Shown piece by piece: positions 35,716 to 51,003 of a stretch of DNA of 64,000 bases; the first letter of the stretch is position 1; each line of letters begins with the position of its first letter. Source of the stretch: Pseudofrankia inefficax. GTDB lineage: Bacteria > Actinomycetota > Actinomycetes > Frankiales > Frankiaceae. The DNA lies in contig NC_014666.1 in assembly GCF_000166135.1 (NCBI RefSeq), positions 6,572,001 through 6,636,000 of the forward strand, read 5' to 3'. Position numbers and translations under genes: made by a program. Under the pieces are notes generated by a model. The model had not been told where the DNA came from and made no database searches. It worked only from the letters and a program-made list of their open reading frames with translations.

Positions 35716-35732
35716 TCAGAATCGGATTCTGA
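35716..35732. promoter_or_regulatory. Perfect 17-bp palindrome TCAGAATC-G-GATTCTGA, candidate TetR operator
   Basis: It overlaps the first base of the TetR start codon at 35732, so binding would block transcription or translation of that gene. A close relative, TCAGAATCGTATTCTT, lies at 40471-40486 before the acyl-CoA dehydrogenase/kinase operon. The adjacent TetR protein is the likely binder. Confidence 0.65.
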
Positions 35733-36463
35733 TGACACAGAACGCTGATCGACTCCTGCCCGGCGGGCCCGGGCACGTCCCCGCCCAGGATCACGAGGTC
35801 CCGACGGCCCGCGACGCCTCGGCCTCGCCGGGCGGCAAGGACGTCGCCGCCCGGACCGCCGCGCGCACCCTGGCGGCGCGCACCGCCGGCTACACCAACG
35901 AGGTCCGCCGGCTGCTGGACGCCGGCCTCGTCGTGGTCATCCGCAACGGCACCTCGTCGCGGCCGCGGGTCGCCGACATCGTGGCCGAGGCAGGCCTGTC
36001 GAACGACGCGTTCTACCGCCACTTCCCGTCGAAGGACGCCCTGGTCGCCGCCCTGATCGAGGACGGCGCGGAGCGGCTCGCCAGCTACGTCGACCATCAG
36101 ATGAGCAAGGAGCCGACGCCGGCGGGCAGGGTGCGCCGCTGGGTCGAGGCGGTGCTCGCGCAGGCCATGGGCGACGTCGCCGAGTCGACCCTCGCGGTGC
36201 TGTGGAACGGCAGCGGAAGCGGGGACGTCGCCTCGGGCCGCCACCCGGCCGCGGGACCGCTGGCGGTACTGCTGCACGAGCCGTTCGCCGCGCTCGGCAG
36301 CGAGGACCCGGCGCTGGAGGGCAGCCTCGCCGCGCACGCCACGCTCGGCACGTTGTCCGACCATCTGTGGCGCCGGGCCGAGCCCACCGAGGCCGACGTC
36401 GAACGGATCACCCGCTTCCTGCTGCGCGCGGTCAGCGGCGCCCCCGCGCCGGACGCCCCCTGA
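35732..36463 (+). CDS. TetR-family transcriptional regulator
   Basis: 243 aa from ATG 35732. The helix-turn-helix is near residues 70-110, with RVADIVAEAGLSNDAFYRHF, after an unusually long N-terminal region of about 60 residues rich in Ala, Pro and Gly. The C-terminal domain is all-helical for ligand binding. There is no ribosome site upstream; the start lies at the edge of a 17-bp palindrome, so the mRNA may be leaderless or a later start may be used. It probably represses itself, the divergent MFS gene and the operon at 40516. Confidence 0.87.
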   Translation: MTQNADRLLPGGPGHVPAQDHEVPTARDASASPGGKDVAARTAARTLAARTAGYTNEVRRLLDAGLVVVIRNGTSSRPRVADIVAEAGLSNDAFYRHFPSKDALVAALIEDGAERLASYVDHQMSKEPTPAGRVRRWVEAVLAQAMGDVAESTLAVLWNGSGSGDVASGRHPAAGPLAVLLHEPFAALGSEDPALEGSLAAHATLGTLSDHLWRRAEPTEADVERITRFLLRAVSGAPAPDAP

Positions 36464-36565: not shown

Positions 36566-37519
36566 ATGAAAGCTGTCCGAGCGACGGACGGCGCCGTCGC
36601 CGTCGTCGAGCTCGACGCGCCGCCAGGCATCGGTGGCGAGTTAGTCGAGATGAAGTCCGCGAGCATCTGCAGCTCTGACCTCATGTACCTCAGGTACGGG
36701 CTGAACAGGGTCGTGGGCCACGAGCTGGCCGGCATCCGCGCGGACGGCACGGCCGTCGTCGTCGAGGCGGTCCTCAGCTGCGGCGAGTGCGACCACTGCC
36801 GCAGCGGCCGCTACAACCTCTGTCCCACGCACTTCACCCAGGCGCTCGGCGCGACCACCGACGGTGGCATGGCCGAGCAGTTCCAGATCCAGTCGAACCG
36901 GCTCATCCCGCTGCCGAGCGGGCTGGACGTCAGGGATGGCTCGCTGGCCGAGCCGACCGCCGTCGGCTGGCACGCGCTGCGCCTCGCGCACACCGGTCCG
37001 GACACGTCCGTCGCGGTCGTCGGCGCCGGGGCACTCGGCCTGCTGGCGGTGGCCAGCGCGTACCGACAGGGCGCGACCGAGGTCGCGCTGGAGGCCAGGC
37101 ACCCGCACCAGGTCGCCGCCGGCGAGCGGCTCGGCGCCAAGATCGGGGCGACCGGACGCTACGACGTGGTGCTCGACGCGGCCGGCACGATGGAGAGCCT
37201 CGCCCGCGCGGTCGAGCTCGTCGGCCCGCGCGGCAGGGTCGTCTCGGTCGCGACGCATCGCGGTCCGGTGCCGATCGACTGGAGCACCTTGTTCCATCTC
37301 GAGGCGAGCATCCTGCCGTCGATCGGCTACTGCATGCACGATCGCGGCGACGGCGAAGCGGTGGCCGAGATCGCCGAGGCGGCCGCGATGCTGGCCGACA
37401 ACCCCGAGATCGCCCAGACCCTGATCACCCACCGGTTCCCGCTGGAGGACGCCGTCGAGGCGTTCCGAGTCGCGGGCGACCGGGCATCCGGTGCTATTCG
37501 AGTAGTGGTGGAGCTGTGA
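36566..37519 (+). CDS. Zinc-dependent alcohol dehydrogenase (MDR family)
   Basis: 317 aa from ATG 36566, with CAGGGAG upstream. GHELAG carries the catalytic-zinc region, and CGECDHCRSGRYNLC is the four-cysteine structural-zinc lobe. The coenzyme motif is VVGAGALGLLA. It is similar to threonine or sorbitol dehydrogenase-like enzymes and somewhat short for the family. It oxidises a secondary alcohol with NAD(P). Its stop overlaps the start of the VOC gene (GTGA), beginning a tightly coupled four-gene operon. Codon 26 is TTA. Confidence 0.9.
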   Translation: MKAVRATDGAVAVVELDAPPGIGGELVEMKSASICSSDLMYLRYGLNRVVGHELAGIRADGTAVVVEAVLSCGECDHCRSGRYNLCPTHFTQALGATTDGGMAEQFQIQSNRLIPLPSGLDVRDGSLAEPTAVGWHALRLAHTGPDTSVAVVGAGALGLLAVASAYRQGATEVALEARHPHQVAAGERLGAKIGATGRYDVVLDAAGTMESLARAVELVGPRGRVVSVATHRGPVPIDWSTLFHLEASILPSIGYCMHDRGDGEAVAEIAEAAAMLADNPEIAQTLITHRFPLEDAVEAFRVAGDRASGAIRVVVEL

Positions 37520-37989
37520 CGACCCTTCGGCCCGAGAACCTGTACCACGTCGGGATCATCGTCGAGGACTTCGAGTCCGAGCTGAAGCGGCTCACGGAGC
37601 TGTTCGGCTACGAGTGGTGCGACGAGCTGGTCGCGGACACCAACGTCCGGATCCACACCGCCGACGGCCCGGTCGAGAAGACGATCACCAACCGGTTCAC
37701 CTACTCGGTCAACGAGCCGCGCCTGGAGATCATCCGGCCGATCCCGGGGACCGTCTGGACGCCGTCCAACTCGGGCGCGCACCACCTGGGCTACTGGTCG
37801 GACGACGTGGTCGCCGACTCCGCCGCCCTGGTCGCGCTGGGGATGCCGCTGGAGGTCGAGGGCGTCGGCCCGGACGGGCTGCCGTACTGGACCTACCACC
37901 GCGGCACCCAGGGACCGCGCGTCGAGCTGGTCAGCAGCGCGATCAAGCCAGGCCTCGAGGGGTACTGGGCGGCGGGAGCGGCCCGGTGA
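37516..37989 (+). CDS. VOC-superfamily (glyoxalase/bleomycin-resistance fold) protein
   Basis: 157 aa from GTG 37516. The sequence NLYHVGIIVEDFESELKRLTELFGYEW has the typical first beta-alpha-beta module with His, and SGAHHLGYWSDDVVADSAAL is the second module. It may be an isomerase, lyase or epimerase such as a methylmalonyl-CoA-epimerase-like enzyme. It is too short for an extradiol ring-cleavage dioxygenase, which has about 290 residues and four modules. It overlaps both neighbours by four bases. Confidence 0.85.
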   Translation: MTTLRPENLYHVGIIVEDFESELKRLTELFGYEWCDELVADTNVRIHTADGPVEKTITNRFTYSVNEPRLEIIRPIPGTVWTPSNSGAHHLGYWSDDVVADSAALVALGMPLEVEGVGPDGLPYWTYHRGTQGPRVELVSSAIKPGLEGYWAAGAAR

Positions 37990-39340
37990 CCGTCGCCGGC
38001 TCGCTCGATCTCGCCGAGTTAACGGACGGCAAGGGCGTCTACCTGGCCTCGCCGGTGCCGGCCGACCTCGCCGGCGTGGGCTATGTCGAGCAGGAGTTCA
38101 CCGCGACCGGGACGGCGACGGCCTACCGGCCCGCCGGGCCGCTGAGCTCCGACGGCCGCTGGTCGTTCGAGCCGGCCGGCACGGCGCCCTACCGCACCCG
38201 GATCGTGGTGCGCCGCCCGGCGGCGCCCGCGGACCTCAGCGGTGTCGCCATCGTCGAGTGGCTCAACGTCAGCTCCGGGCACGACTCGGATACCGGCTGG
38301 GCGGCCGCCACGAGGAGATCACCCGGCGGGGCCACCTCTGGGTTGGCGTGTCGGCGCAGCTGATCGGCGTCGCCGGTGGCCCGGTGACCGCGTCGACCAT
38401 CGAAGGCTCCGAGGCTCCGGGCCTCGTCGGCACCGACCCGGAGCGGTACGGCGGTCTCGTCCACCCCGGCGACGGCTTCGCGTTCGACATCTTCACCCAG
38501 GCCGCCCGTGTGGTCCGGACAGGCGGCGAGCTGTTCGGCGGGGTGACGCCGTCCGTCCTGCTCGCCTGGGGCCAGTCGCAGTCGGCCTACGCGTTGGTCA
38601 CCTATCTCAACGGGGTCGAGCCCAGCACCCACGGGCTCTTCGACGGCTATCTGCTGCACAGCCGGGGTCTCGGCGCGCTGAACCTCGCCGCCCCCGGCCG
38701 GCCCGCCGGCCTGCAGGAACTGGCCGCCACCAGCCCGGTCGTGATCCGCGCGGACACGGCGACGCCCGTCCTGATGGTGCAGGCCGAGGGCGATCTCAAC
38801 CAGGTGCTGCACTCGCTCGGCTCCCGCCAGGACGACACCGAGAAGGTCCGGACCTGGGAGGTGGCCGGCGCCGCGCACGCCGACCGGCACACGGTCGGGG
38901 CGTTCGCCGATCTGCTCGGCTGCGGAGTGGCCATCAACGACGCCCCGACGCACGTCGTCATCAAGGCCGCGCTACGCGCGCTGGAGGGCTGGGTGCGCGA
39001 GGGCATCGAGCCCGCGACGTCGTCACGGATCGAGACCGCCGGCGGCGACATCGTCCGGGACGACGACGGCATCGCCCGGGGCGGCATCCGGGTGCCGCCG
39101 GTGGAGGTCCCCGTCGACGTCCTGTCGGGAATCCCGGGGCCGAACCCGTCGCTGATCTGTCAGCTGCTCGGTTCGACCGTGCCGCTGCCCGCCGAGCGGG
39201 TCGCGGCGCTGTACCCGTCGCGCGACGAGTACCTCGCCCGGTTCACCGCGTCGGCGGACCGGCTGATCTCGTGGGGGTTCGCCCTCGCCGAGGATCGCGA
39301 CGCGCTGCTCGGGTACGCCCAGCCTGATCGGGTCGGTTGA
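37986..39340 (+). pseudogene. Alpha/beta hydrolase domain protein (Abhydrolase_10-like), interrupted by a single-base frameshift
   Basis: The frame from GTG 37986 encodes a family-like N-terminus ending VEWLNVSSGHDSDTGWAAA, then runs off-family and stops at 38363. A second frame continues at once as HEEITRRGHLWVGVSAQLIG through to TGA 39340. A -1 shift near 38308-38314, or one missing C in the run GCCGCCAC, would join them into a continuous protein of about 450 aa. LAWGQSQSAY holds the likely nucleophile Ser. Either the gene is recently broken or a base was lost in sequencing. It overlaps the VOC gene by four bases. Codon 12 is TTA. Confidence 0.75.
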
Positions 39341-39375
39341 GCGACGGGCGGCCCGACACGACGAGGGGTGACCGG

Positions 39376-40404
39376 ATGACCAACGACACGCTGACCGGAC
39401 CGGCGGCACCGGACGGGCCGGCCACCGCCACGCCGCCACGGCGGCCCGGCCTGGTCCGCCGCACGACGACCCACGACTCGCTGCGGCTGTCCGGCCTGCG
39501 CGGGCCGGTCACCCTCGACGCGCGCGGCCGGGACCTGCGGGTCGAGCCCGACGGTTCGACGTCGATCCTCGCGGCGCAGCGCGTGATGGTCGAGGTCACC
39601 TTCCCGGAGCGCGCGATCGCCCGGATCGACACCGATCCGGGCGAGCCCCGGCTCGGAGCCCTGCTCGGCGCCCGGGCCGCGTCGGGCTTCCGGCAGAAGG
39701 TCATCGAGGCGTTGCCCGGCGAGGGGGAAAGCCGCTCGGTCCGCTTCCAGCTGCTCGACGACCTCCCGACGGCGCTGCTCATCAGTGGCTACGCGCTGCA
39801 GAAGCAGGTGGCCCCCGCGCCGTTCGACCGGGAGCGCAAGGCCGCCGGGCTGACGCTGCAGTACCCGGACCTGTGCGCGGGCTGGATCACCGGCGGCACG
39901 ATCGTCCGGGGGCTGGAGGAGACCGGGCAGGTACCGAGGCCGGTCGGCCCGGCGGTCGGCCCGATCGCGGGCACGGACCCGGACGGCTGGCACGAGGTCG
40001 GCCCGCTGCCGGCGCACGGCATGCGCCGACGCCGGCGTCTCGACGTCTGGTGGGAGCCGGGCGAGCCGGACGCGCGGGTGGAGTGCTTCTTCCGCGACAG
40101 CCACATGGACGCGGGCGGCGTCGAGACCGCGCTGCACGAGTACACCGTGCACGCGACCGTCGACCCGCGGTCGGGGACGTTCACCAGCTGCACCGCCGAC
40201 TTCGGCGCCCTGCCGTGGCAGGAGTGCCCGGTGGCGCTGGCCAGCGCCGGCCGGCTGGTCGGGCGGCGCCCGGACGGCCTGCGCCGCCACGTCCGCGACA
40301 CCTTCACCGGCATCTCGACCTGCACCCACCTCAACGACACGCTGCGCTCGCTGGAAGACGTCGGCGCGCTGATCGACAAGCTGCCCGCGCATCACGCCGG
40401 GTAG
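39376..40404 (+). CDS. DUF2889 family protein
   Basis: 342 aa from ATG 39376, with GAGGGGTG upstream. The C-terminus contains GISTCTHLNDTLRSLEDV, typical of DUF2889. The middle includes two-strand patterns such as VECFFRDSHMDAGGVETALHEYTVHA. The function is unknown. Its position last in the alcohol dehydrogenase/VOC/hydrolase operon suggests an accessory role in the same pathway, not one that can be named. Confidence 0.75.
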   Translation: MTNDTLTGPAAPDGPATATPPRRPGLVRRTTTHDSLRLSGLRGPVTLDARGRDLRVEPDGSTSILAAQRVMVEVTFPERAIARIDTDPGEPRLGALLGARAASGFRQKVIEALPGEGESRSVRFQLLDDLPTALLISGYALQKQVAPAPFDRERKAAGLTLQYPDLCAGWITGGTIVRGLEETGQVPRPVGPAVGPIAGTDPDGWHEVGPLPAHGMRRRRRLDVWWEPGEPDARVECFFRDSHMDAGGVETALHEYTVHATVDPRSGTFTSCTADFGALPWQECPVALASAGRLVGRRPDGLRRHVRDTFTGISTCTHLNDTLRSLEDVGALIDKLPAHHAG

Positions 40405-40515: not shown

Positions 40516-41817
40516 ATGGCGTGGGACTTCGAGACCGATCCCGAGTACCAGAAGAAGCTCGACTGGGCCGATGAGTTCGTCCGCAACGAGGTCGAGCCGC
40601 TCGACCTCGCCTTCCCGGACCTGCAGTTCGTCCCGCTGACGGAGACCCGCCGCCGGCTCATCGACCCGCTCAAGCAGCAGGTGCGCGACCAGGGCCTGTG
40701 GGCGACCCACCTCGGCGCGGACCTCGGCGGCCAGGGCTTCGGCCAGCAGAAGCTGGCGCTGCTCAACGAGATCCTGGGCCGGTCCTCGTGGGCGCCGATC
40801 ATCTTCGGCTGCCAGGCCCCGGACACCGGGAACGCCGAGATCATCGCGCACTACGGCACGCCGGAGCAGAAGGAGCGCTACCTGCAGCCGCTGCTCGACG
40901 GCGAGATGTTCTCCAGCTACTCGATGACCGAGCCGCAGGGCGGCGCGGACCCGACGCAGTTCACCTGCAGCGCCCACAAGGAGGGCGGCGAGTGGATCAT
41001 CAACGGGTGGAAGTACTTCTCGTCGAACGCCAGGACGGCGAGCTTCTTCATCGTCATGGTGGTCACGAACCCCGACGTGAGCGCGTACCGGGGCATGTCG
41101 ATGTTCCTGGTGCCGTCGGACACCCCGGGCATCAACATCGTCCGTAACGTCGGCCTGGCCGGCGAGCCCCTCGGCGACGGAATGCACGCGCTGATCCACT
41201 ACGAGGACGTGCGGGTGCCGGAGTCGGCGCTGCTCGGCGGCGAGGGCCAGGCGTTCGCCATCGCCCAGACCCGCCTCGGCGGCGGGCGCATCCACCACGC
41301 GATGCGCACCATCGGCCAGGCCCAGCGGCTGCTGGACATGACCTGCGAGCGGGCGCTCTCGCGCACCACCGCGGGCAGCAAGCTCGCCGAGAAGCAGTTC
41401 GTGCAGGGCTTCATCGCCGACTCGTACGCCCAGCTGCTGCAGTTCCGGCTGCTGGTCATGTACATCGCCTGGGAGATCGACAAGTACCAGGACTACAAGC
41501 GGGTCCGCAAGGACATCGCCGTCGCGAAGATCGTCATGCCGACGATCCTGCACGACATCGCGTGGCGGGCGATGCAGATCCACGGCGCCCTCGGCACCAC
41601 CAACGAGATGCCGTTCTTCAAGTCGATCAACGGCGCCGCGGTGATGGGCCTGGCCGACGGCCCGACCGAGGTCCACAAGGTGACCGTCGCCAAGCAGGTC
41701 CTGCGCGACTACAAGCCGACCGACGGCATGTGGCCCACCGAGTGGATCCCCGCGAAGCTCGAGGCCGCCCAGGCCAAGTACGCCGAGTTCCTCGAGCACG
41801 AGGTCGGCAACCAGTAG
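40516..41817 (+). CDS. Acyl-CoA dehydrogenase, ACAD10/11-like
   Basis: 433 aa from ATG 40516, with GAGGAAGGA upstream. Motifs are MTEPQGGADPTQF, IINGWKYFSSNARTA and, at the C-terminus, MQIHGALGTTNEMPFFKS and GLADGPTEVHKVTVAKQVLR, which match the ACAD10/11 branch better than ordinary FadE. The next gene encodes an APH-type kinase, the domain fused to this enzyme in animal ACAD10/11. In the characterised LvaA/LvaC pathway such partners phosphorylate a 4-hydroxyacyl-CoA and eliminate the phosphate. The role here is inferred from that pairing. Confidence 0.9.
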   Translation: MAWDFETDPEYQKKLDWADEFVRNEVEPLDLAFPDLQFVPLTETRRRLIDPLKQQVRDQGLWATHLGADLGGQGFGQQKLALLNEILGRSSWAPIIFGCQAPDTGNAEIIAHYGTPEQKERYLQPLLDGEMFSSYSMTEPQGGADPTQFTCSAHKEGGEWIINGWKYFSSNARTASFFIVMVVTNPDVSAYRGMSMFLVPSDTPGINIVRNVGLAGEPLGDGMHALIHYEDVRVPESALLGGEGQAFAIAQTRLGGGRIHHAMRTIGQAQRLLDMTCERALSRTTAGSKLAEKQFVQGFIADSYAQLLQFRLLVMYIAWEIDKYQDYKRVRKDIAVAKIVMPTILHDIAWRAMQIHGALGTTNEMPFFKSINGAAVMGLADGPTEVHKVTVAKQVLRDYKPTDGMWPTEWIPAKLEAAQAKYAEFLEHEVGNQ

Positions 41818-41870
41818 GGCCGCCAGGTCCCCGAAACCAGATCCAGCACTCTTGAAATGGGGAAACACCT

Positions 41871-42926
41871 GTGAGCGACGCGGACCCGACACCGCTCGAC
41901 TTCGACAAGCTCGCCGCTTGGATGGACACCCAGGGGCTGCCGGGCGCTGGCGCCCCGCTCTCGTCCAAGTTCCTGTCCGGCGGGACCCAGAACGAGATCT
42001 ACCTGCTGACCCGCGGCGACTTCCAGTGCGTCATCCGGATCCCGCCGGCCAAGGCGCCGGCCGACCGGGACGCCGGCATCCTGCGCGAGTGGCGGATCAT
42101 CGAGGCGCTCGACGGCACCGACGTCCCGCACACCGCGGCGGTCGCGGTGTGCACGGACCACTCGGTGCTCGGCCGGACCTTCTACCTCATGGGCTTCGTC
42201 GACGGCTGGTCGCCGATGAACATGAAGGACCGCAAGTGGCCCGAGCCGTTCGACAGCGACCTGGACCTGCGCCAGGGCCTGGGCTACCAGCTCGCCGAGG
42301 GCATCGCGCTGCTGTCCAAGGTCGACTGGCAGGCCAAGGGCCTGCAGGACCTGGGCCGGCCCGACGGCTTCCACGAGCGCCAGGTCGACCGCTGGACCAG
42401 CTTCTTCGAGAAGATCAAGACCCGTGAGCTCGAGGGCATGGACGTGGCCACCGACTGGCTGCGCAACCACCGGCCGCTCGACTACATCCCCGGCCTGATG
42501 CACGGCGACTACCAGTTCGCCAACGTCATGTTCAAGAACGAGGTCCCGGCCAAGCTGGCCGCGCTCGTCGACTGGGAGATGGGCACGGTCGGCGATCCCA
42601 AGCTCGACCTGGCCTGGATGGTCATGAACTGGCCCGAGAACCCGCTGGACCGGGACGCGGTCAAGGCGGGCTACGTCGACCACTTCGGGATGCCGACCCG
42701 GGACAAGATCGTCGAGCACTACGCGAAGGTCTCCGGCCGCCAGGTCGACGACCTCGACTACTACCTCGTGCTGGCCCGTTGGAAGATCGCGATCGTCCTG
42801 GAGCGCGGCTTCGCGCGGGCGGGCAACGACCCGAAGCTGCTCGCGTTCGGGCCGGTCATCGAGCAGGCGATGCGCAACGCGGCCGAGTTCGCCTCGACCA
42901 CGGACTACAAGCACACGGGGAAGTGA
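41871..42926 (+). CDS. APH-family phosphotransferase (ACAD10/11 N-terminal domain-like, LvaA-like)
   Basis: 351 aa from GTG 41871. FLSGGTQNEIYLL is the nucleotide loop. The catalytic loop is H211-G-D213-Y-Q-F-A-N218, and the metal-binding acid is in D234-W-E236, the pattern of aminoglycoside-phosphotransferase-fold kinases that act on hydroxyacyl-CoA. It lies 53 bp after the acyl-CoA dehydrogenase. An antibiotic-resistance role is unlikely in this context. The likely reaction is ATP-dependent phosphorylation of a 3- or 4-hydroxyacyl-CoA. Confidence 0.88.
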   Translation: MSDADPTPLDFDKLAAWMDTQGLPGAGAPLSSKFLSGGTQNEIYLLTRGDFQCVIRIPPAKAPADRDAGILREWRIIEALDGTDVPHTAAVAVCTDHSVLGRTFYLMGFVDGWSPMNMKDRKWPEPFDSDLDLRQGLGYQLAEGIALLSKVDWQAKGLQDLGRPDGFHERQVDRWTSFFEKIKTRELEGMDVATDWLRNHRPLDYIPGLMHGDYQFANVMFKNEVPAKLAALVDWEMGTVGDPKLDLAWMVMNWPENPLDRDAVKAGYVDHFGMPTRDKIVEHYAKVSGRQVDDLDYYLVLARWKIAIVLERGFARAGNDPKLLAFGPVIEQAMRNAAEFASTTDYKHTGK

Positions 42927-42930
42927 ACCC

Positions 42931-43908
42931 ATGAAGGCTGCGGTCTGTGTGGAGTACGGCGGCCCGGAGGTCATCGAGGTCAAGGAGATCGACACTCCGC
43001 CGGTCGGGCCGGATCAGGTCCGGGTCGGCGTCCGGGCGGCTGCGGTCAACTTCCCGGACGTGCTCGTCATCGCGAACACCTACCAGGTGAAGGCACCCGT
43101 GCCGTTCGTGCCCGGCAGCGAGTTCGCCGGTGTCGTCGAGGAGGTGGGCGCGGACGTCACCGGCCTCGCCCCCGGCGACCGGGTCGCCGGGACGGTGTTC
43201 GTCGGCGCCTTCGCCGAGCAGGTCGTGTGCAGGCCCGAGTCGTTGCGTCCCATCCCCGACGGGGTGGACGACCGGTCGGCCGCGGCCTTCGTCGTCGCGC
43301 ACCGCACGTCGTACCACGTGCTGCGCTCGATGGCCCGGGTCCAGCCGGGCGAGCGGGTGGTGGTGCTCGGCGCGGGTGGCGGCGTCGGCCTCGCGGCCGT
43401 CCAGCTCGCCGTCGCCCTGGGCGCCGAGGTGACCGCGGTGGCGAACGCGGCCGACAAGCTCCAGATCGCCGCGGCGAACGGCGCGACGACGCTGCTCGAC
43501 AACACGGTCGAGGACCTCCGGAAGGCGCTGAAGGTGGCGCACCCGGACGGCGTCGACGTCGTCGTCGACATGGTCGGCGGGGACCTCTCGGAGGCGGCGC
43601 TGCGGGCGCTGCGCTTCGACGGGCGTTTCGTGACCGTCGGCTACGCGTCGGGAACCATCCCGCGTATCCCGCTGAACCTGGTGCTGCTCAAGGGTGCGCA
43701 CATCATGGGCTTCCAGATGCGCGATTTCGCCACCCACCGGCCGGACGAGCTCGCTCGCGACGACCGGGAGCTTACGGAGCTGCTCTCGTCGGGGAAGGTT
43801 CGCCCGTACATCGGCTCCGTCTTCGACCTGGACGACACGGCCGGCGCGCTGCGGCACGTCGCCGACGGAAAGGCGATCGGAAAGGTCGTGCTCGACGTCG
43901 CGCCCTGA
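42931..43908 (+). CDS. NADPH:quinone oxidoreductase-like MDR protein (zinc-free)
   Basis: 325 aa from ATG 42931, 4 bp after the kinase stop. PGSEFAGVVEEVG and the coenzyme motif VLGAGGGVGLAAVQLA are those of the QOR branch of medium-chain reductases. No structural-zinc cysteines are present. It would reduce an enone or quinone, or act as an enoyl-CoA reductase. Its place in the operon suggests it reduces an unsaturated CoA intermediate, but that is an inference. Confidence 0.9.
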   Translation: MKAAVCVEYGGPEVIEVKEIDTPPVGPDQVRVGVRAAAVNFPDVLVIANTYQVKAPVPFVPGSEFAGVVEEVGADVTGLAPGDRVAGTVFVGAFAEQVVCRPESLRPIPDGVDDRSAAAFVVAHRTSYHVLRSMARVQPGERVVVLGAGGGVGLAAVQLAVALGAEVTAVANAADKLQIAAANGATTLLDNTVEDLRKALKVAHPDGVDVVVDMVGGDLSEAALRALRFDGRFVTVGYASGTIPRIPLNLVLLKGAHIMGFQMRDFATHRPDELARDDRELTELLSSGKVRPYIGSVFDLDDTAGALRHVADGKAIGKVVLDVAP

Positions 43909-44101: not shown

Positions 44102-45391
44102 ATGGCGCCGTTCCGATGGCGGAGCTCATCCCGGACGAAAGCCGCATTACTCGCCGCGGCCACCGGGCTCACGATGCTGGTGGCCTGCGGAGGCCCAGGC
44201 ACGACGGCCGCCGCGGGCTCCTGCACCTCGTCCGTCGCCGGAATCACGCCGACCGGCGTCAAGGCGGGAATGGTCTGGAGCGATACCGGGCCGTCGGCCG
44301 AGACCATGCGGGCCTTCCGCGCCGGAGTCGACGCCAGGATCGATGCGGCGAACGAACAGGGCGGCATTCTCGGCCGCAAGGTGACCTACGCCTGGCGCGA
44401 CGACCAGGCCGACAAGTCCCTGAACCTGCACGGCACCCAGGACCTGGTCCAGAACGAGAAGGTCTTCGGCATCATCGCGATGCCGAGCGCGACCAGCGCG
44501 GAGACCTCGGACTGGCTCGCCAGCCAGGGCATCCCGGTTACCGGCCTGGCCAGCGACGCCAGCTGGCTGGGCAAGAACAACATGTTCTCCTGGTTCTATC
44601 TCGGCGACGGCTCGGTCACGACCTGGGGCGACTACGTCAGCCACGAGCACGGCACCCGGGCCGCCGTCATCGCCGTGTCGGCGAACGCGTCCAACGGCGA
44701 CTTCACCCAGCAGATCGTGGCCAGCCTGAAGGCCGCGCACATCACGGTCGTCAGGACCTTCGCCATCTCGGACACCACCACCAACTACGCGTCGCTCGCG
44801 CAGCAGATCAAGGCTGCCGGCATCGACTCCCTGGCCGGTGTCCTGCTACCGGACGCCGCCGCCCAGCTGATCCCCGCGCTCAAAGAGGTCGGCCTGAACC
44901 TGGGCCAGAGCCTCAAGGTCGCGCAGATGCCACTCGGCTATGACCCGACCGTCCTGGCGAAGTACGGCAGGACGCTCGCCGGGGTCTCCGTCGCCACGGC
45001 GATCAGGCCCTTCGAGGAGGGCGCCCCCGGGCAGCGGGCGTTCACGTCCGCGATGGAGCTCTACGCACCGGAGATCCAGCCCCCGACGCAGGACAGCGCC
45101 GTGGACGGCTGGATCTCGGCGGACCTGTTCATCCGGGGCCTGCGGGCCGCCGGCGCCTGCCCGACCCGACAGTCATTCATCTCCGGGCTGCGCGCGGTCA
45201 AGGACTACGACGGCGCAGGCATGTCCCCGCTCGCGAAGAACGATCTGTCGGCCAACTACAAGCAGACGACGAGCTGCTACTACTTCTTGAAGATCAGCCA
45301 GGACGGGGCGGCGTTCCAACCCCAGAACGGTGGGCAGCCGTTCTGCGGGAGCCCGATCAGCCCGGCAGAGGTCGCCGCCGCCAACCAGTGA
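44102..45391 (+). CDS. Solute-binding lipoprotein, Peripla_BP_6 type (tandem paralogue 1)
   Basis: 429 aa from ATG 44102, with CAGGAGAA upstream. The lipobox is LVAC with C29 as the modified residue. The mature protein begins after a short linker with CTSSVAGITPTGVKAGMVWSDTGPSA, a type 1 binding fold. Cysteines in the mature N-terminus, GACPTRQSF, SCYYFL and PFCGSPI are shared with the next gene and probably form disulfides. No permease or ATPase is nearby. Codon 16 in the signal peptide is TTA. The ligand is unknown. Confidence 0.88.
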   Translation: MAPFRWRSSSRTKAALLAAATGLTMLVACGGPGTTAAAGSCTSSVAGITPTGVKAGMVWSDTGPSAETMRAFRAGVDARIDAANEQGGILGRKVTYAWRDDQADKSLNLHGTQDLVQNEKVFGIIAMPSATSAETSDWLASQGIPVTGLASDASWLGKNNMFSWFYLGDGSVTTWGDYVSHEHGTRAAVIAVSANASNGDFTQQIVASLKAAHITVVRTFAISDTTTNYASLAQQIKAAGIDSLAGVLLPDAAAQLIPALKEVGLNLGQSLKVAQMPLGYDPTVLAKYGRTLAGVSVATAIRPFEEGAPGQRAFTSAMELYAPEIQPPTQDSAVDGWISADLFIRGLRAAGACPTRQSFISGLRAVKDYDGAGMSPLAKNDLSANYKQTTSCYYFLKISQDGAAFQPQNGGQPFCGSPISPAEVAAANQ

Positions 45392-45739: not shown

Positions 45740-47020
45740 GTGTCGTCACCCGGACGCAGTCGGTTAGTTCGCGCTGGCGCGCTAGCTGTGATCGCGACAA
45801 GCCTCGCGGCTGGGCTGGCCGGTTGCGGCAGCTCCGGCTCCGCCACTTCCGCGGCTTCCTGCTCGACGCAGGTGCCGGGCATCACGAGCACCACGGTCAA
45901 TGCGGGGCTGCTGTGGAGTGACAGCGGCGACGGCGCCAGCTCCATGCCGGACTTCCGCTCCGGCGTCGACGCTCGCTTCGGGCTGGCGAACGAGTCCGGC
46001 GGCGTCTTCGGCCGCACCGTCAGCTACGCGTGGCGCGATGACCAGAGCAGTCAGGATCTCAATCTCCTCGGTGCCCAGGATCTCGTCGGCCGTGGGCACG
46101 TCTTCGGCATCATCGAGGCCCCTGGCGCGAGCAACGGTTCCATCACCTGGCTCAACCAGCAGAACATTCCGGTGACCGGGCTGGCCAGCGACCCGGGTTG
46201 GGTCGGCCGGAACAACATGTTCTCGTTCTATTACCTGAGCGATGGCTCGAGCACCGTGTGGGGGGACGTCATCAATGCGGCGGGAGCCTCCCGTGCCGCG
46301 GTGCTCGAGGTCTCCGGGAACAAGTCCAACTCCGATTTCAGTCGCCAGTACGAGGCGAGCCTGCTGGAATCCGGCGTCAAGATCGTGAGAGAGTTCCAGA
46401 TCGCGGAGGCGGTCACCAACTACCAGGCGGTCGCGAAACAGCTCAAACAGGACGATATCGACGCGCTGGTTGGCGTCCTGCTCCCGAGCACGGCGGCCAA
46501 GCTCATCCCGGCGGCCCGAAGCCTGGGCGTCAACCTCAAGATCACCATGATGCCGCTCGGCTACGACCCCGCCGTGCTGGCCAGCTCCGGCAAGGCGATC
46601 GCCGGCACGATCATCTTCACCGAGGTCCAGCCCTGGCTCGACACCCCGCGCCAGCAGACCTTCGAGGCGGCGATGGCGAAGTACGCCCCCGAGATCCAGT
46701 CGGTGCGGTCGGACAGCGCGGTCGACGGCTTCGTCGCCGCCGACATCTTCATCCGCGGCCTGCAGGCGGCCGGGAAGTGCCCGACGAGGGAATCCTTCAT
46801 CTCCGGGTTGCGCGCGGTCACGAACTACGACGGGTTCGGCCTCGTTCCGGCACCGGTCAACTTCGCGACGAACCTGAAGGCGCCGCAGTCCTGCTACAAC
46901 TTCATCCAGGTCCGCGCGGACGGCTCCGCCTTCGACCCGATGTTCGGAGGCCAGGCCAGGTGCGGCCGGCCGATCTCCTCCGCCCGCATGAACCAGCTGC
47001 TGGACCCGGGCTCGTCCTGA
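45740..47020 (+). CDS. Solute-binding lipoprotein, Peripla_BP_6 type (tandem paralogue 2)
   Basis: 426 aa from GTG 45740, with AGAGGAG eight bases upstream; an ATG at 45735 in another frame gives only a 10-codon peptide. The lipobox is LAGC with C29. It aligns with the preceding protein along its length (for example AGLLWSDSG vs AGMVWSDTG, SYAWRDDQ vs TYAWRDDQ, MPLGYDP in both), so the two are a tandem duplication with marked divergence. The four mature cysteines are kept. There is no transporter gene. Codon 9 is TTA. Confidence 0.88.
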   Translation: MSSPGRSRLVRAGALAVIATSLAAGLAGCGSSGSATSAASCSTQVPGITSTTVNAGLLWSDSGDGASSMPDFRSGVDARFGLANESGGVFGRTVSYAWRDDQSSQDLNLLGAQDLVGRGHVFGIIEAPGASNGSITWLNQQNIPVTGLASDPGWVGRNNMFSFYYLSDGSSTVWGDVINAAGASRAAVLEVSGNKSNSDFSRQYEASLLESGVKIVREFQIAEAVTNYQAVAKQLKQDDIDALVGVLLPSTAAKLIPAARSLGVNLKITMMPLGYDPAVLASSGKAIAGTIIFTEVQPWLDTPRQQTFEAAMAKYAPEIQSVRSDSAVDGFVAADIFIRGLQAAGKCPTRESFISGLRAVTNYDGFGLVPAPVNFATNLKAPQSCYNFIQVRADGSAFDPMFGGQARCGRPISSARMNQLLDPGSS

Positions 47021-47872: not shown

Positions 47873-47945
47873 CACGAGTCCGAGCGAAATGTCGGTAGGA
47901 GGGCCCTCGTGGCTGAAAAGTCACTAACCGTCAGTGGGAGCCGAC

Positions 47946-49013
47946 ATGCTCTTTGAGTTCGACGAGGACCAACAGCTGCTGCGCGCCACTGTCCGCGACG
48001 TGTTGTCGAAGGAGTGCCCGCCGGCGCTGGTCCGTTCCGTCGCCGATCAGGGCGTCGACCCGATGCCACTGTGGCGGACCTACGCCGAGCTCGGCTGGAC
48101 CGAGCTGACCGGGACGAGCGAGGCGGTCGAGCTCGCGATCGTGCTGGAGGAGCTCGGCCGGGCGACCGACCCGACGCCCTACCTGGCCACCATGACCTGG
48201 TTCGCGCCGCTGGTGGCCGGGGTTACGGACGGGTCGGCCGCCGGCGACGGTGAGACCGGCACCGCCGTGTTCGACGGGGTCAGCGCGCATCTCGACCCAC
48301 ACGGCGACGGCGCCTGGATCCTCGACGGCACCGCGCACCACGTGCTCGACGGCGACCGGGCCGACTGGTTCGCGGTCGTCACCGACGCCGGGGTGTTCAC
48401 CGTGCCCGCCGCCGACGCGACGGTCCACCGCACCGAGGCCTTCGACCCGCTGCTGCACGTCGCCGACGTCAGCTTCTGGCAGGTCAGGGTCCCGGCGGCG
48501 CGGCGGGTCGAGGCCGACGTCGAGCTGGCCCGCGACATCGCGCTCACCGGTCTGGCCCTGACCATGGTCGGCGCCTGCCGGCGCGTGCTGGAACTGACGC
48601 TCGACCACGTCCGCACCCGCGAGCAGTTCGGCGTCCCGATCGGCTCGTTCCAGGCGGTCAAGCACAAGGCCGTCGACATGCACGTCGCGATCGAGCGGGC
48701 CACCGCCCTGGCGTACTTCGCCGCCCTCACCCTGGCCGAGGAGGACCCCCGCCGGGCGACCGCGGCGGCGATGGCGAAGGCCGCGGCCGGCGAGTGCACC
48801 TCGCTGGTATTCGAGAGCGGCTTCCAGCTGTTCGGCGGCATGGGCTTCACCTGGGAGAACGACCTGCAGTTCGCGTTGAAGCGGGCGCTGGCCGGCGAGC
48901 TGCTGCTCGGCGGGGCCGACGTGCACCGGGCCAGGATCGCCGCCGCCCTGCTCGACGGCCCGGCGACGGCCGGCGACCAGCCCGCGAAGGAGCGTCATGC
49001 AGCTGCGGTTTGA
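47946..49013 (+). CDS. Acyl-CoA dehydrogenase, short subunit of a heteromeric pair
   Basis: 355 aa when started at ATG 47946, with GGGAG five bases upstream; a GTG at 47934 in frame lacks a good site. The N-terminal part is diverged, but the C-terminal LFGGMGFTWENDLQFALKRALAG is the FAD-region motif of the partner subunit type. It overlaps the next acyl-CoA dehydrogenase by 17 bp. It probably forms a heteromer that dehydrogenates a bulky acyl-CoA. Confidence 0.87.
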   Translation: MLFEFDEDQQLLRATVRDVLSKECPPALVRSVADQGVDPMPLWRTYAELGWTELTGTSEAVELAIVLEELGRATDPTPYLATMTWFAPLVAGVTDGSAAGDGETGTAVFDGVSAHLDPHGDGAWILDGTAHHVLDGDRADWFAVVTDAGVFTVPAADATVHRTEAFDPLLHVADVSFWQVRVPAARRVEADVELARDIALTGLALTMVGACRRVLELTLDHVRTREQFGVPIGSFQAVKHKAVDMHVAIERATALAYFAALTLAEEDPRRATAAAMAKAAAGECTSLVFESGFQLFGGMGFTWENDLQFALKRALAGELLLGGADVHRARIAAALLDGPATAGDQPAKERHAAAV

Positions 49014-50172
49014 CGACGACGTCGAGGCGTTCCGCGCCGAGTTCACCGCGTTCCTCGACGCGAACCTGCCGGCCGTCGAGGAGGCCGCCGAGCGGCCGAC
49101 CTCGACCGCGCACATGCCGGCCTGGTCACGGCGCTGGCAGCGGCTGCTGTTCGACAACGGCTGGCTGCTGCCCGGGAACACGCCGGAGTTCGGCGGCCGC
49201 AACGCCAGCCTGCTCCAGCAGTTCGTCCATCTGGAGGAGCTGGGCAAGCGGCGCATCTACCACAGCTTCAACCCGCAGGGCCTGGGCATCATCGCCGCGT
49301 CACTGCTGACCTTCGGCACCGACGAGCAGAAGCAGCGCTGGGCCGTGCCGATCCTCAAGGCCGAGATCACCGCGGCGCTGGGGATGAGCGAGCCGGGCGC
49401 TGGCTCGGACCTCGCCGGCCTGCGCACCCGGGCGACGCTCGACGGCGACCACTTCGTCGTCAACGGGCAGAAGATCTGGACGTCCGGCGCGCATGACGCC
49501 GACATCCTGCTGACCTTCGTGCGCACCGACCCGGACGCGCCCAAGCACAAGGGCATCAGCGTTCTGGTGATCCCGACCGACCTGCCGGGCCTCACCTGCC
49601 GGCCGTTCGGCTCGATCCTGGGGACCGACGACCAGGACTTCAACGAGGTCTTCTTCGACGACGTCCGCGTACCGGCGGAGAACCTCATCGGCGAGCTCAA
49701 CAAGGGCTGGCACGTCGCGAACGGCTCGCTCGGGCACGAGCGCACGATGCTGTGGCTGAACTTCGCCGACCGGCTCGACGAGTTCGTCGAGGACTTCCGG
49801 CCGACGACCACGCTCGACCGGGACCGCTACGCGACCCTGGCGATGGACGCGACCGCGCTGCGGCTGCTCGGCTCGGCCGCGCTGGCCAAGGCTGCCCGCG
49901 GCCAGGAGGACGTCGCCTCGATCTCGGTGCTGAAGCTCCTCGGCTCCGAGGCGGTCCGGACCACCGCCCGCCACGCCCTGCTCGCCCAGGGCCCGGCCGG
50001 GCTCGACGGCGCCGTGAACTCGCGGCCCTTCGAGCACATGAACCTCGACTGGTTCTTCGCCAGCTGGTTCAAGCGGTACGCCCACAGCTTCTCCGGCACC
50101 ATCGCTGGCGGCACGTCGGAGATTCAGCGCACGATTGTCGCCGAGCGGGTGCTCGGCCTGCCCCGGAGCTAA
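48997..50172 (+). CDS. Acyl-CoA dehydrogenase, long subunit of the pair
   Basis: 391 aa from ATG 48997, with AAGGAG upstream. Motifs are LGMSEPGAGSDLAGL, VVNGQKIWTSGAHDAD and GTIAGGTSEIQRTIVAERVLGLPR. The N-terminal PEFGGRNASLLQQF and the C-terminal set are those of a FAD-binding FadE. It completes the pair with the upstream subunit and is followed after 18 bp by an enoyl-CoA hydratase, so this operon carries two successive beta-oxidation steps. Confidence 0.92.
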   Translation: MQLRFDDDVEAFRAEFTAFLDANLPAVEEAAERPTSTAHMPAWSRRWQRLLFDNGWLLPGNTPEFGGRNASLLQQFVHLEELGKRRIYHSFNPQGLGIIAASLLTFGTDEQKQRWAVPILKAEITAALGMSEPGAGSDLAGLRTRATLDGDHFVVNGQKIWTSGAHDADILLTFVRTDPDAPKHKGISVLVIPTDLPGLTCRPFGSILGTDDQDFNEVFFDDVRVPAENLIGELNKGWHVANGSLGHERTMLWLNFADRLDEFVEDFRPTTTLDRDRYATLAMDATALRLLGSAALAKAARGQEDVASISVLKLLGSEAVRTTARHALLAQGPAGLDGAVNSRPFEHMNLDWFFASWFKRYAHSFSGTIAGGTSEIQRTIVAERVLGLPRS

Positions 50173-50190
50173 CCGGTCAGCGAAACGGTC

Positions 50191-51003
50191 ATGGGAGTTA
50201 CCGACTTGTACATTCTCTACGATGTCGCGGACAGCATCGCGACGATCACGTTGAACCGTCCGGAAGCGGCGAACGCGCAGAACGGCGCGCTGCTGGAGGA
50301 GCTCAACGACGCCTGGGTGAAGGCGGCCGAGGACCCCGAGGTCAAGGTCATCATTCTGCGCGCCGAGGGCAAGCACTTCTCGGCCGGGCACGACCTGAAG
50401 CCGGACCCGTCGACACCGACCCCGGCGAAGATCACCCTTGAGGACATCTACAACATCGAGGCGCGGCGGTACCTGGAGTTCTCGCTGCGCTGGCGCAACA
50501 TCCCGAAGCCGTCGATCGCGGCGGTGCAGGGCCGCTGCATCGCGGGCGCGCTGCTGCTGTGCTGGCCGTGCGACCTGATCATCGCGGCCGACGACGCCAA
50601 GTTCTCCGACCCGGTGGTCGCGATGGGCATCGGCGGCGTCGAATACCACGGCCACACCTGGGAGCTCGGGGCGCGTAAGGCCAAGGAGATCCTCTTCACC
50701 GGCCGCGCGGTCACCGCCGAGGAGGCCGAGAAGGTCGGCATGGTGAACAAGGTCGTCCCGCGGGCCGACCTTGACGCCGAGACCCGGGCGCTGGCCGCGC
50801 AGATCGCGGTGATGCCGTCGTTCGGCCTGCGCCAGGCCAAGCGCGCGGTCAACCAGACCCTGGACGTGCAGGGGTTCTACGCGGCGATCCAGTCGGTCTT
50901 CGACATTCACGAGACCGGCCACGGCAATGCGCTCTCCGTGTCCGGATTCCCGGTCCTGGTGAACCTCAACCAGATGAAGGACACCATCAAGTCCGTCAAC
51001 TGA
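50191..51003 (+). CDS. Enoyl-CoA hydratase/isomerase (crotonase) family
   Basis: 270 aa from ATG 50191. A TTG at 50206 in the same frame has GGGAG at a proper distance and is a credible alternative start. The oxyanion segments are KHFSAGHDLK and the region around QGRCIAGALLLC. The usual catalytic Glu region reads MGIGGVEYHGHTWELG, an atypical form. It would hydrate or isomerise the product of the acyl-CoA dehydrogenase pair encoded just upstream. It is followed by a terminator hairpin at 51034. Confidence 0.88.
   Translation: MGVTDLYILYDVADSIATITLNRPEAANAQNGALLEELNDAWVKAAEDPEVKVIILRAEGKHFSAGHDLKPDPSTPTPAKITLEDIYNIEARRYLEFSLRWRNIPKPSIAAVQGRCIAGALLLCWPCDLIIAADDAKFSDPVVAMGIGGVEYHGHTWELGARKAKEILFTGRAVTAEEAEKVGMVNKVVPRADLDAETRALAAQIAVMPSFGLRQAKRAVNQTLDVQGFYAAIQSVFDIHETGHGNALSVSGFPVLVNLNQMKDTIKSVN

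Follow-up and report, generated by a model that had tools for sequence, protein, structure and literature searches.

A conserved acyl-CoA dehydrogenase, kinase and reductase gene trio of Pseudofrankia inefficax as a candidate module for ATP-dependent dehydration of hydroxyacyl-CoA

Gene layout and conservation of the trio

The genes described here lie in the 8.8-Mb single-contig genome of Pseudofrankia inefficax (NC_014666.1), within a stretch of 64,000 nucleotides (bases 6572001-6636000) that was analyzed as a whole and is called the window below. They encode an acyl-CoA dehydrogenase (ACAD), a kinase of the aminoglycoside phosphotransferase (APH) fold and a medium-chain dehydrogenase/reductase (MDR). 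An initial annotation, made from the sequence, had proposed the three genes, and all were recovered as intact open reading frames on the + strand with no internal stops.

40516..41817, + strand: acyl-CoA dehydrogenase of the ACAD11 branch (P0001, 433 aa), from alignment, tree and structure-relative comparison
41871..42926, + strand: stand-alone APH-fold kinase (P0002, 351 aa, GTG start), from Pfam and alignment
42931..43908, + strand: zinc-free MDR oxidoreductase, PIG3/QOR-like (P0003, 325 aa), third gene of the conserved trio

The ACAD begins with the ATG at 40516, which is preceded by a GAGGAAGGA-like ribosome site. Intergenic spacing was 53 bp between ACAD and kinase and 4 bp between kinase and MDR, so the three genes are likely carried on a single transcript. 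Pfam returned the N, M and C domains of ACADs for P0001, APH (99 bits) for P0002, and ADH_N and ADH_zinc_N for P0003. The reductase scored 219 bits against the PIG3 model, below the model's cut-off of 297. It contains just two cysteines (positions 6 and 100) and thus lacks the cysteine set of zinc-binding alcohol dehydrogenases, in agreement with its first description as zinc-free.

Orthologous loci were taken as the best 80 out of 533 stretches that one scan of the sequence collection yielded, and came from Frankia types, Nocardia, Rhodococcus, Mycobacterium, Gordonia, Williamsia, Aldersonia, Acidimicrobiia and others. In 76/80 loci the kinase lay directly 3' of the ACAD. The full trio was present in 62/72 (42 direct and 20 with a gap, which in 18 cases contained an enoyl-CoA hydratase match), the 8 loci with <3.2 kb 3' of the ACAD being left out of this count. 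The order ACAD-kinase-MDR is a genuine conserved unit.

The pairing of dehydrogenase and kinase, which the initial annotation had reported, was also borne out within the genome itself. Seven further ACAD11-branch ACADs (L013-L019, at 6529288, 3396421, 4957175, 6915770, 3965520, 5091931 and 4692673) were found, five of which have an APH match no more than 2.5 kb away; eight such dehydrogenases in a single genome seem many. Within 2.5 kb, 6/8 branch ACADs had an APH match vs. 0/65 other ACAD matches (Fisher P = 1.6e-7). The contrast faded as distance grew (6/8 vs. 2/65 within 5 kb; 7/8 vs. 12/65 within 12 kb). Chance adjacency of ACAD and kinase was ruled out by the pairing counts.

Genome-by-genome searches were confined to the phylum of the window's genome. 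In this sample of 119 genomes, 14 carried P0001-type ACADs (E 1e-100 or better), 28 in all, of which the window's genome accounts for 6. An APH match within 2 kb accompanied 16 of the 28 (11/22 elsewhere, 5/6 in the own genome), and one more lay at 4.6 kb. For 11 P0001-type ACADs there was no match to the eleven query kinases in the sequence around them (mostly 8-9 kb per side; less for L138, L139 and L141), and these 11 still keep the active site. A nearby kinase is not universal across the wider P0001-type family.

Residues and relationships of the dehydrogenase and kinase

ACAD trees were built from 37 chosen rows, with no LvaC row among them, and from 67 chosen rows as a quick tree that carried a long-branch warning. 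P0001 grouped with ACAD11 against conventional ACADs with support of 100/100 in the former and 100 (SH-aLRT, an approximate likelihood-ratio test) in the latter. The ACAD11-type enzymes formed their own clade (100/99: ACAD11, 4hr3, L018, L019), and the P0001-type group (88/81) adjoined it. P0001-type enzymes are a group of their own, next to the ACAD11 clade and within the ACAD10/11 branch. The earlier assignment to the ACAD11 branch therefore stands at the level of ACAD10/11 but not within the ACAD11 clade, and P0001 was not filed as an ACAD11 orthologue. A position outside the ACAD10/11 branch, which the initial annotation had named as contrary evidence, was not obtained (100/100). Two ACAD11-type enzymes of the same genome (L018, L019) are closer to ACAD11 than is P0001, which shares 37-38% identity with the solved members of the ACAD11 clade. 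P0001 shares 99% identity with an ACAD of Frankia sp. AgB1.9.

In mouse ACAD11, as described in PMC12440821, the 4-phosphate is held by R626, H634 and R637 (modelled), with D753 acting as base. ACAD activity suffered most when R626, H634 and R637 were replaced non-conservatively (PMC12440821), and the Asp-to-Asn mutant is inactive. P0001 residues R253, R258, H261, R264 and D381 align to R626, R631, H634, R637 and D753. For the motif check, 30 of the genome's 73 ACAD matches were extracted (8 branch members and 22 others, some incomplete), and 14 of the 22 plus 1ukw served as 15 conventional rows. The equivalents of R626, H634, R637 and D753 were invariant in 80/80 orthologues, 22/22 wider relatives and 8/8 own-genome branch members, and never occurred all together in any of the 15 conventional ACADs, where the D753 position held E (8 rows), G (5), P (1) or A (1), and in no case Asp. 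In P0001 the HCMR motif reads HAMR, its middle residue being A in 79/80 orthologues and S in 1/80; 4hr3 and L019, both members of the ACAD11-type clade, likewise have Ala at the HCMR Cys. Conventional ACAD identity for P0001 was ruled out by the tree and the active-site residues.

The HGD (211-213) and DWE (234-236) motifs of P0002 are both intact, as first noted. Residues R72, R170, D213, N218 and D234 align to R86, R176, D220, N225 and the DWE Asp of ACAD11, and these equivalents were kept in all 75 readable kinase orthologues (one incomplete row gave gaps). Judged by alignment, P0002 retains the catalytic residues and the modelled CoA-contact residues of the ACAD11 kinase. By sequence it scored 156 bits with 3dxp, 150 with 9o56, 85 with the ACAD11 kinase domain and 34 with 25-hydroxy steroid kinase (25-HSK). 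By fold comparison 25-HSK (9fsg/9ft5) was among its closest matches; 8v3v and 9o56 were not among the 50 fold matches listed, which has no bearing on their folds.

Against the NCBIfam resistance models P0002 scored 21.6 bits for APH(3') (cut-off 205), 29.6 for capreomycin (390) and 18.6 for Mph(F) (650), and a drug-resistance identity was ruled out, the family scores lying far below the cut-offs. Kinases of this type are titled aminoglycoside phosphotransferases (3dxp, 9o56), so they could pass for resistance genes. The genome holds 46 PF01636 matches, many of them weak.

Relationships among the kinases were examined in a quick tree of 38 chosen rows, which carried a long-branch warning. Kinases paired with P0001-type ACADs formed one clade with P0002, L002 and L003 (support 99) and a second with L009, L135, L136, L143 and L145 (100); the latter also holds L008, which has no branch ACAD within 5 kb. 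The kinase L005 adjoined 9o56 (97, long branch). At least two kinase clades are thus paired with one ACAD type, and probably three. The tree requires 4 changes of partner label, 2 of them forced by well-supported branches. Such repeated pairing with different kinases speaks for a functional need for a kinase, and tells against one inherited pair that serves one substrate. Across 18 pairs, kinase and ACAD distances were correlated (r = 0.375, 2/5000 permutations as high), a value inflated by near-copies and shared ancestry.

Proposed reaction and its alternatives

Gene order, conservation, residues and branch placement are what the locus displays directly; the activity, hydroxyl position, substrate and reductase step given below are proposals built on them. 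In known relatives, the kinase uses ATP to form a 4-phosphoacyl-CoA, after which the ACAD takes the C2 proton, hydride passes to FAD and phosphate leaves (PMC11342911, PMC12440821). Return of the hydride to give a 2-enoyl-CoA without an external acceptor is the proposal of those papers. The ATP and FAD steps are documented in mammalian and proteobacterial relatives alone.

The kinase and ACAD of the window very probably act in the same manner as LvaA and LvaC, by ATP-dependent phosphorylation of a hydroxyacyl-CoA followed by elimination of phosphate. The kinase would phosphorylate the hydroxyl, most likely at C4, and the neighbouring dehydrogenase would bind the phosphoacyl-CoA through R253, H261 and R264. 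D381 would then abstract the alpha proton while FAD held the hydride transiently; with phosphate expelled and hydride handed back, a 2-enoyl-CoA would be released for beta-oxidation. In net terms, ATP would drive the dehydration of a hydroxy acid whose breakdown is otherwise blocked, as with LvaA/LvaC and the fused ACAD10/11. P0003 probably acts ahead of the pair, reducing an enone or oxo compound to the substrate, or else trims what the pair produces. This is the mechanism that the initial annotation had put forward, and it is the best supported of those considered, its chemistry being predicted from conserved residues.

Several observations weigh against it. Identity between P0001 and ACAD11 is no higher than 37-38%, and Cys635 of ACAD11 (HCMR) is Ala in P0001; LvaC is 56-62% identical to the mammalian domains (PMC11342911). 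No LvaB-sized gene, CoA ligase or short-chain dehydrogenase/reductase (SDR) adjoins the pair in the window. The phylum sample includes 12/28 P0001-type ACADs with no APH match within 2 kb, and the close orthologues L092, L103, L116 and L119 (4/80) have no kinase match in their loci. Kinases of the L009/L135/L136/L143/L145 clade lack the equivalent of R176, which is thought to contact CoA in ACAD11, and may recognise substrate differently. In six own-genome pairs (five of the P0001 type, one of the ACAD11 type) kinase and ACAD distances were uncorrelated (r = -0.12, 363/720 permutations as high); the partners have thus not simply evolved in step, and strict co-evolution is unsupported in the own genome.

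A convergent gene run 3' of the ACAD in L103, L116 and L119 resembles an aromatic meta-cleavage set (named by eye); it comprises an amidohydrolase, a hydrolase and an FAD monooxygenase, with a dioxygenase-like gene in two of the three (judged from first residues, by eye).

The alternative that survives best keeps the phosphorylation-elimination chemistry and changes the substrate to a sterol, terpenoid or ring-cleavage hydroxyacyl-CoA, with the hydroxyl possibly elsewhere and a separate substrate for each paralogous pair. We give it slightly short of an even chance. Against it, the phosphate-holding residues of ACAD11 are unchanged, which points to a similar geometry; neighbouring genes vary between lineages and say little about the substrate. 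A broader idea, given somewhat less than an even chance, is that a separate and as yet undescribed actinobacterial branch of phosphate-eliminating ACADs, joined by various APH-fold kinases, might be a general module for ATP-driven dehydration that handles hydroxyacyl-CoAs from sterols, terpenoids or rings as well as 4-hydroxy fatty acids, with up to six modules in one genome.

It is improbable that the ACAD is an ordinary dehydrogenase passing electrons from FAD to electron-transferring flavoprotein and the kinase an unconnected neighbour whose substrate is a sugar, alcohol or drug. The plentiful PF01636 matches of the genome and the 12/28 ACADs with no such match within 2 kb would fit that account, whereas the Arg/His/Arg phosphate site is invariant, Asp at the D381 position was found in 0/15 conventional ACADs, the pairing is branch-specific and kept in 76/80 loci, and P0002 reaches 21.6 bits where APH(3') has a cut-off of 205. 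Least probable is a kinase acting on a free, non-CoA alcohol, as 25-HSK does so that a sterol side chain can be dehydrated with the help of ATP (PMC8449060), with the ACAD as a later separate step: 25-HSK is among the closest folds, but P0002 is far nearer in sequence to 3dxp, 9o56 and the ACAD11 kinase domain, and both the modelled CoA contacts (R86, R176) and the ACAD phosphate site are kept.

Among open-licence papers, judged mostly from title and start of abstract, no literature on an actinobacterial version was found. Added to what is known are the group beside the ACAD11 clade, the conserved actinobacterial trio, the residue-level conservation and the exchange of kinases. Residues and synteny together amount to a specific claim on enzymology, namely that a branch beside ACAD11 carries out ATP-dependent dehydration in Actinobacteria, with relatives in Nocardia, Rhodococcus and Mycobacterium among them. 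The branch also offers a natural series of split genes, in which one ACAD type has partners from at least two kinase clades, for studying the origin of the fused animal enzymes and what sets the hydroxyl position.

Neighbouring genes and comparison with known systems

Five genes on the + strand precede the trio in the window.

35732..36463, + strand: TetR regulator, first gene of the run, from family profile matches
36566..37519, + strand: Zn-type alcohol dehydrogenase, from family profile matches
37510..37989, + strand: VOC/glyoxalase-like protein, start approximate, from Pfam
38258..39340, + strand: alpha/beta hydrolase (PF20091), start uncertain, from Pfam; present in 4/80 orthologous loci
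39337..40404, + strand: DUF2889 protein immediately 5' of the ACAD, start uncertain (39379-40404 searched), from Pfam

In 25/80 orthologous loci a VOC relative, and in 18/80 a TetR relative, lay near the ACAD (within 2.5 and 3.5 kb, respectively). The DUF2889 gene was kept in 5/80, all Frankia-type by title, and is therefore accessory and not a core part. On the 3' side of the trio are two tandem Peripla_BP_6-type proteins (44129-45391, from Pfam; 45740-47020, by similarity), the first with relatives in 6/80 orthologous loci; an uptake system for the pathway substrate is possible. Further on, at 47934-51003, two adjoining ACAD genes are found with an enoyl-CoA hydratase. The second ACAD is nearest to the steroid ACAD Tcur3483 and 4x28, and relatives with 65-71% identity lay ~5-9 kb from the module in 12/80 loci.

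Many loci of mycobacteria and Rhodococcus carry nearby genes for TetR, thiolase, CoA-transferase III, SDR, cytochrome P450 or extra ACADs (several named by eye). Since neighbouring genes differ by lineage, they did not single out a substrate. Some deeper relatives have an SDR in the run: in L146 and L147 the order is kinase-SDR-ACAD followed by an MDR 54-56% identical to P0003, and in L126 it is ACAD-SDR-kinase. By analogy the SDR of these runs recalls LvaD, which converts levulinyl-CoA to 4-hydroxyvaleryl-CoA (PMC6692424); the window pair has no adjoining SDR, so its MDR or the Zn-type alcohol dehydrogenase may fill that place. Next to the paralogue L013, and divergent from the ACAD-kinase pair, is a gene (L122:7443-9152, - strand) in which a ChsH2-type zinc ribbon/OB fold is fused to a thiolase-like C-terminal domain.

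LvaA and LvaC of Pseudomonas putida resemble the window pair in having separate, close genes for kinase and phospho-ACAD and in the reaction expected. The lva operon also carries LvaB, LvaD (SDR) and LvaE (CoA ligase), whereas the window pair is adjoined by DUF2889 and MDR genes instead. The 53 bp between ACAD and kinase leave no room for an LvaB-sized gene, and DUF6285, presumably the LvaB family, had no match in the window's genome; no LvaB partner was thus identified. Alpha-, Beta- and Gammaproteobacteria are reported to have homologues of lvaABCD (PMC6692424).

In ACAD10 and ACAD11 (8v3u, 8v3v, 2wbi) kinase and ACAD are fused in one chain, whereas here they are separate reading frames; the window further differs by HAMR in place of HCMR, by an identity of 37-38% and by the extra MDR partner gene. 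Among the nearest solved relatives, 4hr3 (Mycobacterium abscessus ACAD) for P0001 and 3dxp (Ralstonia APH-fold protein) for the kinase carry putative names only; both group with the ACAD11-type rows, apart from those of the window. The 25-HSK of Sterolibacterium denitrificans shares an APH-like fold and ATP-dependent dehydration via a phosphoester, but matches P0002 at only 34 bits, and its substrate is a free tertiary alcohol of a sterol (PMC8449060). Aminoglycoside phosphotransferases share the PF01636 fold, HGD and DWE with P0002, whose own context is acyl-CoA metabolism.

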